Shown here piece after piece: positions 18,705 to 20,293 of a DNA stretch of 64,000 nucleotides. Source of the DNA: Xiphias gladius. Taxonomy: Eukaryota > Chordata > Actinopteri > Istiophoriformes > Xiphiidae. The stretch covers positions 6,804,521-6,868,520 of the forward strand of contig NC_053418.1 of assembly GCF_016859285.1 (NCBI RefSeq), read 5' to 3'. The translations under genes and the position numbers were made by a program. The notes beneath the pieces were generated by a model, which saw nothing but the letters and a program-made list of their open reading frames with translations, searched no databases and was not told the origin of the DNA. Position 1 is the stretch's first letter. The number at the start of each line of letters is the position of its first letter.

Positions 18705-19567
18705 GTGAGAAACTTGATATAATGAATGATTTTTTTTTTTTTTTTTTCCCCTTGAGGCCATGTGTTTCCATTTTGGTCAAGTAAATAATTAATCAAAAGG
18801 ACTATGTACTACAAAAAGATACTGTTTACTCTGTGCCTGCAATAGTCGTGTAATAGTAAATTATGTGCATGAGGATCAAATCATTTAGACAGTTTTTTGA
18901 TGTAGATCAGCCTTTTTAACCACTTAACCAGTGAGGCTCCTAAAAGGAAATTTTTTTAGTGTTTATCACTGTACCGTATTTGTCAACAATTGTAACCTCT
19001 CCTATGAAGATATATTTTATAGTTTAACACCTGTGTTTTACTGCATTGTCATTGTATGTCCACTTGGAGCCCACAGGAGGCGTTATAGTAACAAATACAT
19101 TAATAAACACATATATCTGCTTATAAATACATTATAATACTTTATAAACTATTCAAAGTTTATGAAATGGGGGGTTAAAGTGAACTGTTAAAAAAACTTT
19201 CTGCTTAAATGAAGTTTGATTTGTAACAAAAAAAACTGTAAAATTATAATCAGATGTATAAATAATTTGATCTCTGACTTAATGCACATCTGGTACAAAT
19301 GTACATAATTTTAATCACCAAATGCCTGGAATGAGCCAAAAAAAGCCTCTTGAAAAACAATAAGAGGAAAAATATGAGCATTTTATTCTGCAGAAAGAAA
19401 ACAGCAAATCACAAAAATAAATTCTGGTAAACGTTCCTGTCAGATTTTTATTAATTATTCTCTTTCATTAACTGTAATGTGTGTGTAAAAAATCTCAGTA
19501 AGGTGGGCGGTTTTCCTCACGACATACTTTGACTGTAATTTCTTCTTGCAGTCAGTCACCTCAGCAC

Positions 19568-19945
19568 TAGGGCTGCAACTGACAATTATTTTCATTATTG
19601 ATTAACCTACAGGTTATTTTCCCAATTGATCATTCAGTGTATAAAATGTAAAAAAAATAAAATAAAATAAAAAGTGGAAAGAATGCCCTTTATAATTTGC
19701 CACAGCGATGGTGGCATCTTTTTAAATATCTATTTTGGTTCAACAAAGAATCTAAAAAACCCAAAGATATTCAGTTTATGATCACGTAGGACAAAAACAA
19801 GCAGAAAATCTTCACATTTAAGAAGCTTGAACTTGGGCATGTTTGGCATTTTTTGCAAAAAAAAAAAAAAGACTAAAACGATTATTCGATTATCAAGACA
19901 GTTGCTGATTAATTTTCCTTCCGTCGACTAATCCTTGCATCTCTA
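19568..19945 (+). mobile_element. Element B (hAT-like MITE) inserted before the TAL2 start codon
   Basis: Starts TAGGGCTGCAACTGACAATT and ends GACTAATCCTTGCATCTCTA. It is flanked by CTCAGCAC (19560-19567) and CTCAGCAT (19946-19953), an 8-base target-site duplication with one mismatch. The insertion lies between an intact acceptor (TTCTTCTTGCAG, ending 19551) and the TAL2 ATG at 19955. The right copy of the duplication plus the end of the transposon form a second acceptor, CTCTACTCAG|CATC. Confidence 0.85.
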
Positions 19946-19954
19946 CTCAGCATC

Positions 19955-20293
19955 ATGACCAGGAAGGTGTTCACCAACACGAGGGAGCGCTGGCGCCAGC
20001 ACAACGTCAACACCGCCTTCGCCGAGCTCCGCAAGCTCATCCCCACCCATCCTCCGGAGAAGAAGCTGAGCAAGAACGAGATCCTGCGCCTGGCCATGCG
20101 CTACATCAACTTCCTGGTGCAGCTGCTGGAGAGCCAGAGCGGTCAGCCGGCCAGCCACTCCCCCACCGCCCTTCTCACCTTCCTCAGAGGAAACATGGAG
20201 CAGCTGCAGTCCCCTCCACACACCTGGGCCCTCACCAGTGACACTGACGCTGCGTCGCCAGGATCCAGCTGCGACAGCGCAGAGGCCTGGTAG
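19955..20293 (+). CDS. tal2: TAL2, bHLH transcription factor
   Basis: Complete 112-residue protein in one exon, close to the 108 residues of human TAL2. Class II bHLH factor that pairs with E proteins and binds CANNTG; in vertebrates it specifies midbrain GABAergic neurons. Residues 3-14 form the basic region ([12 protein letters not shown], with the E-box-contacting Glu11 and Arg12). Helix 1 covers about 15-28, the loop contains THPPEKK, and helix 2 contains [19 protein letters not shown]. The C-terminal tail (about 65-112) is Ser/Pro-rich. The MTRK start matches the family exactly, and there is no longer N-terminus as in TAL1 and none of the N-terminal extension of LYL1. The start lies ten bases after a hAT-like element, and the 5' UTR is probably spliced from 18704. 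Codons are GC-rich compared with the surrounding DNA. Confidence 0.95.

Follow-up and report, generated by a model that had tools for sequence, protein, structure and literature searches.

What becomes of a gene's splicing when a transposon lands between the acceptor of its second exon and its start codon? The question is raised by tal2, which lies inside the stretch of DNA analysed here (the window: 64,000 nucleotides, positions 6,804,521-6,868,520 of contig C19 in a genome of 690.8 Mb). An earlier note on this DNA had placed a hAT-type MITE between an intact acceptor ending at 19551 and the tal2 ATG, and we find its coordinates to be exact (Table 1).

The single TAL2 reading frame is 98% identical over 112 aa to TAL2 of Lates japonicus in a protein search (best 120 of 619 matches), carries an HLH domain (E = 1.2e-19), and has the size of a TAL-type bHLH protein, about 110 aa. 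Searched against the source genome, it finds tal2 itself as the best match among 38 rows, and the second match, on contig C14, reads as tal1. A spliced tal2 retrocopy was sought in the source genome, and none was seen in the exon 1 and top TAL2 rows inspected. Exon 1 as a query matched itself and two short stretches only.

Exon 1 had been taken to end at 18704 from the DNA letters, and protein comparisons bear this out. Translated in the TAL2 frame across the 19950 junction, the exon gives LSEHEETQLSGRS..EISVHFYKRTRAHTY-SI-M with no ATG, and this reading resembles the N-terminal extensions of the TAL2 models of Nothobranchius (P0011; 51%, E = 1.2e-6, 32.9 bits) and Simochromis (P0004; 58%, E = 1.6e-6, 32.5 bits). 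It resembles Poeciliopsis P0025 weakly, at a borderline value (E = 0.03, 19.3 bits, against a maximum of 18.9 bits among 60 shuffled queries). Judged by these matches, the predicted exon with its end at 18704 is homologous to exons in models of other fish and conserved there. The idea that exon 1 encodes a conserved N-terminal extension was rejected: the frame is open upstream as far as a stop but has no ATG in this fish when joined via 19950, and when joined via 19551 it meets stops inside the element. The Simochromis extension used as the sole query matched only itself (one of two candidates). The N-terminal extension of Collichthys TAL2 (P0003) matches the window further upstream, at 17442-17531 (E = 4.8e-5), and P0003 seems to derive from the splicing of a different first exon to an exon 2 that would begin 14 nt before the ATG. 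The promoter region together with part of exon 1 (18368-18541), where the TATAAAA box lies, is weakly like the extension of a trout model, P0123 (E = 0.004). Rfam returned nothing at gathering score over 18300-20700.

Table 1. Features of the tal2 locus in window positions; acceptor scores come from a table made for primates, and ranks are among all AGs of the window.
Feature	Position	Strand	Remarks
Possible alternative tal2 first exon	17442..17520	+	match to Collichthys P0003 extension; donor CTGCAG/GTGCAG at 17520/17521
tal2 exon 1, noncoding	18485..18704	+	start is an estimate just below TATAAAA; donor CAG/GTGAGA at 18704/18705
Ancestral acceptor TTTCTTCTTGCAG/	19532..19551	+	yTnAy motif TTGAC (A at 19532); score 91.6, top 0.5%
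Left target-site duplication CTCAGCAC	19560..19567	+	same as the inferred ancestral site; other fish proteins read L-S-T-M
hAT-type MITE, 378 bp, noncoding	19568..19945	+	TIR 9/12, TSD 7/8, copies in window and genome
Element-internal AG (TTATTGATTAACCTACAG/G)	19612	+	score 86.1, top 2.8%; above the right-end acceptor
Element right end CGACTAATCCTTGCATCTCTA	19925..19945	+	yTnAy motif CTAAT (A at 19931), pyrimidines
Right target-site duplication CTCAGCAT	19946..19953	+	AG at 19949-19950 inside
Candidate second acceptor CTCAG/CATC-ATG	AG 19949-19950	+	score 79.5, top 9.9%
TAL2 coding sequence	19955..20293	+	112 aa, single exon; ATG at 19955

The element is bounded by the 8-mers CTCAGCAC and CTCAGCAT, which agree at 7 of 8 positions, a match equalled by 42 of 63,200 window pairs at the same spacing. 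Three other window copies have target-site duplications agreeing at 7/8, 6/8 and 6/8, and with ends placed automatically, 7 of 24 other family copies have duplications of 6/8 or better. The terminal inverted repeats of the tal2 copy, TAGGGCTGCAAC and TAGAGATGCAAG, pair at 9 of 12 positions, and its left end equals the family consensus over all 12 bases. An 8-bp duplication and short terminal inverted repeats are hAT features; the small size (below about 600 bp), the lack of coding capacity, with stops in the TAL2 frame, and the many copies are those of a MITE. Family matches longer than 200 bp within the window are 60-66% identical. A search of the 690.8-Mb source genome with the element yielded 1,582 candidates at first look; 40 of these were scored, and at least 43 genome rows, the window itself included, were listed, all at E <= 0.001. 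In being short and noncoding, with short TIRs and 8-bp duplications, the element is like Mar of Drosophila, described in PMC3517528 as a hAT MITE with duplications of the Buster type, nnnTAnnn. Unlike that motif, CTCAGCAC fits nTnnnnAn (T at position 2, A at position 7), the pattern given for the Ac-type element hobo in PMC8961557. Among the nine copies whose duplications agree at 6/8 or better, four left duplications fit nTnnnnAn (c1, c2, c7 and L013) and five do not (c4, c6, L016, L019 and L022).

As had been noticed, the right end of the element supplies GACTAAT and pyrimidines, and both are seen in the sequence. The family consensus right end, CGACTAATCGTTGCAGCTCTA, has an AG of its own (GTTGCAG), which the tal2 copy lacks (GCAG to GCAT); this terminal AG is kept in 14 of the 16 other copies with an aligned end, being absent from L017 and c3. 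The terminal repeat of the family, with the consensus CGACTAATCGTTGCAG for the right ends of copies L009-L028, thus looks like a built-in acceptor-like end. Within its last 21 bases the tal2 copy differs from the family at two positions, each a G changed to a pyrimidine.

How old is the insertion? A family consensus was made from 20 genome copies and four window copies, of which 17 of 24 were kept and seven dropped for poor ends or lengths. Against this consensus, built without it, the tal2 copy is 78.1% identical (K2P 0.262 over 356 columns), and the other 17 copies range from 69.5% to 84.8%. The 78.1% value supersedes one of 73.0% from an earlier, rougher consensus of 11 window copies. The best-scoring other genome copy, among the 40 of 1,582 candidates scored, has 71% identity along most of its length, with shorter matches up to 85%. 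Because the tal2 copy is only 78.1% like its consensus and its best other scored copy only 71% like it, the insertion looks old. The recent insertion supposed at first finds no support in this divergence, both from the consensus and from the other genome copies.

We then read the ancestral, empty site from fish proteins that run upstream of the TAL2 ATG, so that its codons are inferred from amino acids. A TAL2 search of the genome_contigs and viral_contigs collections gave no confirmed relative. An upstream reading is present in 20 of 128 protein entries, and since the TAL2 protein search listed the best 120 of 619 matches, further entries of this sort may exist; 15 of the 20 are fish or rank among fish; three tetrapods (P0088, P0091 and P0109) were left out, as were P0095 and P0110 (56-58% identical). 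S-T or S-I stands directly before M in 12 of the 15 fish entries. Some of these share only the S-T/I next to the ATG (the salmonids P0013 and P0123, Oryzias P0121, and P0047, P0058 and P0122). Three of the 15 read differently before M: Megalops P0040 (..PGA-M), Coryphaenoides P0049 (..PEA-M) and sturgeon P0052 (..QYK-M). AGC ACC/ATC codons before the ATG in fish are inferred, as S and T/I leave the codons unfixed.

Two entries are clear empty sites, Simochromis P0004 (..GTAELSTM) and P0006 (..LVAVELSTM). Their inferred codons are GAG-CTC-AGC-ACC-ATG, and an element end would put CTA where GAG stands. The left duplication followed by the C before the ATG translates exactly as L-S-T-M, so the empty site would have been CTCAGCACC-ATG, with a later C to T change in the right duplication; the empty site first predicted, CTCAGCATC-ATG, was one base off. 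In Nothobranchius P0011 (..HFYK-NSTM) and Poeciliopsis P0025 (..HFYT-NSIM), the exon-1 motif HFYK/T comes almost directly before S-T/I-M, and both models seem to be spliced at the AG corresponding to that of CTCAG, as (A)AG/C ACC/ATC ATG. Two further entries are ambiguous. Collichthys P0003 (..AWPAALLSTM) and P0014 (MVAALLSTM) are not counted as empty sites, since AALLSTM is also encoded by the element's own end: the family consensus end followed by CTCAGCACC reads IVAALLSTM in the TAL2 frame. Both readings also fit a native acceptor located 14 nt upstream of the ATG.

Since S-T or S-I precedes M in 12 of 15 fish entries, and since two fish models apparently splice there, the AG of CTCAG appears to be ancestral host sequence. 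The earlier note had the second acceptor made by the target duplication; it is indeed present as sequence, and its AG was, on the protein readings, part of the host before the element came. In place of an acceptor created by duplication, we would put an ancestral AG that was preserved by the duplication and given a new upstream context. The note also proposed that tal2 may have been rescued or rewired by the new acceptor; the older and far stronger one, however, persists.

We next compare the strength of the two acceptors. Scores were taken from a Shapiro-Senapathy-type table made for primates, and ranked against the 8,146 AGs on both strands of the window. The acceptor ending at 19551, which reads TTCTTCTTGCAG, is far up this ranking, whereas about one window AG in 10 scores as high as the candidate at 19950. 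As a yardstick, we positioned four acceptors of other genes in the window by eye, guided by the coding exons, and they score 78.5, 87.9, 90.0 and 90.5; these are four of nine places considered, the rest lying inside exons or being unclear (one unclear AG scores 83.3). Because these four span 78.5-90.5, the score of the 19950 candidate is that of a possible but weak acceptor. The AG of the left duplication scores 73.8 on the primate table. The AG at 19612, inside the element, runs straight into a GT (CAG/GTTATT), a weak donor, and a 61-nt mini-exon at 19552-19612 is conceivable.

If the old acceptor had been abandoned, it should have decayed. In simulations, an unused old acceptor stays at 91.5 or above in 10.5% of cases at a divergence of 0.22 and in 7.6% at 0.26. 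Such an acceptor thus rarely stays strong (8-11% of simulations), and therefore its continued use is favoured. For the right end, decay from a GCAG end gives an acceptor like the one observed, without a nearer AG, in 2.2%, 3.3%, 4.7% and 5.6% of simulations at divergences of 0.10, 0.15, 0.22 and 0.26, and decay from a TCAG end gives an equally good one in 8-14% (divergence 0.10-0.25). That the right-end acceptor is better than chance decay usually yields hints that it too may be selected. Taken together, the simulations, whose numbers were obtained after the fact and depend on the primate table, mildly suggest that both acceptors have been kept.

The choice between the two junctions would change the 5' leader considerably. 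An mRNA spliced via 19551 keeps 403 nt of exon 2 ahead of the ATG and contains seven upstream ATGs, of which the element contributes five; one spliced via 19950 keeps four nt and contains two. The upstream ATGs are counted from the estimated beginning of exon 1, and all the upstream ORFs close before the TAL2 start. Upstream ATGs in a retained leader are expected to lower translation. RNA structure in the retained leader does not go beyond that of shuffled sequences (z = +0.74; 79 of 100 shuffles fold at least as well).

Our best explanation, which we consider probable by a modest measure, runs as follows. An old hAT-type MITE would have entered at CTCAGCAC, within the 17 bases that separate the exon-2 acceptor (GCAG, 19551) from the ATG, and the target duplication would have left the host AG (CTCAG/CAYC-ATG) on either side of the element. 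With a host AG on both sides, the gene-side copy would therefore have stayed in front of the ATG, where the branch-point-like end of the element, with its pyrimidines, now stands ahead of it. The old acceptor, being much stronger, would still be used most, so that most tal2 mRNA would keep the 403 nt before the ATG, and five extra short upstream ORFs would lower its translation. A minority would be spliced at 19950, a weaker bypass that removes the element and all five extra upstream ATGs. If both acceptors are used, the transposon would have given tal2 a switch between two 5' leaders, one damped and one open.

The leading alternative, which we regard as somewhat unlikely, is that 19950 took over. 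The element would then simply lie within a lengthened 5'-UTR intron, and the old acceptor would survive as a relic or be of minor use. The yTnAy motif lies 19 nt upstream of the 19950 AG with no AG between, as this reading would have it, and the right end has improved over that of the family, from 72.8 to 79.5 on the primate table, both terminal changes being G to pyrimidine. Skipping the element would also rid the leader of five upstream ATGs, and the corresponding AG is apparently the one used in the models of Nothobranchius and Poeciliopsis. However, few AGs of the window outscore the old acceptor while 19950 is just in the top tenth, and an unused old site is expected to have decayed.

A further alternative, which we think improbable, makes the insertion much older and common to other percomorphs. 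In fishes whose element end has decayed less, splicing would use the acceptor of the terminal inverted repeat, GTTGCAG/CTCTA, and loss of that AG in the lineage of the window would have shifted splicing to the host CTCAG. The consensus end followed by CTCAGCACC would give nearly what P0014 starts with and what P0003 has (PAALLSTM), exon 2 of P0003 seems to begin where the terminal-repeat acceptor would place it, and the 14 of 16 aligned copy ends that retain the AG fit as well. However, a native acceptor placed 14 nt upstream of the ATG, as P0006 and P0004 suggest, predicts nearly the same reading, and tblastn at E <= 0.1 finds no match between the P0003 extension and either the element or the family consensus. 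A fuller version, a splice-site relay to which we would give little credence, has the MITE common to many percomorphs, the terminal repeat acting at first as the tal2 acceptor (GTTGCAG/CTCTA-CTCAGCACC-ATG), which the readings of Collichthys and P0014 permit, and the AG loss in the window lineage passing splicing to the host CTCAG; the old acceptor would meanwhile keep a second, damped mRNA with five upstream ORFs, giving two-state control of a midbrain bHLH gene. That the element is passively carried with no regulatory role, tal2 coming mainly from another start so that neither junction matters, is very improbable: a second upstream exon may exist and the retained leader folds in no unusual way, but models of other fish conserve the exon 1 that ends at 18704, and a transcript begun anywhere upstream of 19551 still has to be spliced past the element or through it.

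Returning to our best explanation, how does it compare with known systems? Transposon-derived alternative 3' splice sites and exonisation in 5' UTRs are a known general kind, and the tal2 case is ordinary transposon exonisation, or supply of an alternative acceptor, at a single locus with one instructive twist. As in 5'-UTR exonisation, an element that lies beside an acceptor lengthens the UTR or provides a rival 3' splice site. Unlike the usual case, the competing AG of tal2 would be ancestral host sequence kept on the gene side, and the element would give upstream context only. The locus would thus be a clean example of a tolerated insertion between an acceptor and a start codon, in which the duplication keeps the host AG gene-side and the element end brings a branch-point motif.

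Certain introner families carry a 5' splice site and co-opt a 3' site from the target duplication, as Fig. 2C of Gozashti et al. 2022 (PMC9860276) presents them. As in that figure, the duplication of the tal2 DNA element carries a 3' splice site. Unlike the introners presented there, the element makes no new intron at its insertion site, having inserted beside the acceptor of an existing 5'-UTR intron, which may be lengthened. Among the matches listed in our literature searches there was no publication on tal2 with a transposon, and a search joining tal2, transposable element, splice and teleost gave no match. TAL2 is listed among intronless genes linked to cancer in PMC8302217, and therefore the fish 5'-UTR intron need not exist in human. 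Elsewhere in the window lie a UDP-glucuronosyltransferase gene (26071-31971, UDPGT domain), a probable POLI gene (46071-53377) whose product has an IMS domain and a UBM motif, and a Ras-family GTPase that is probably RAB27 (56107-56361).
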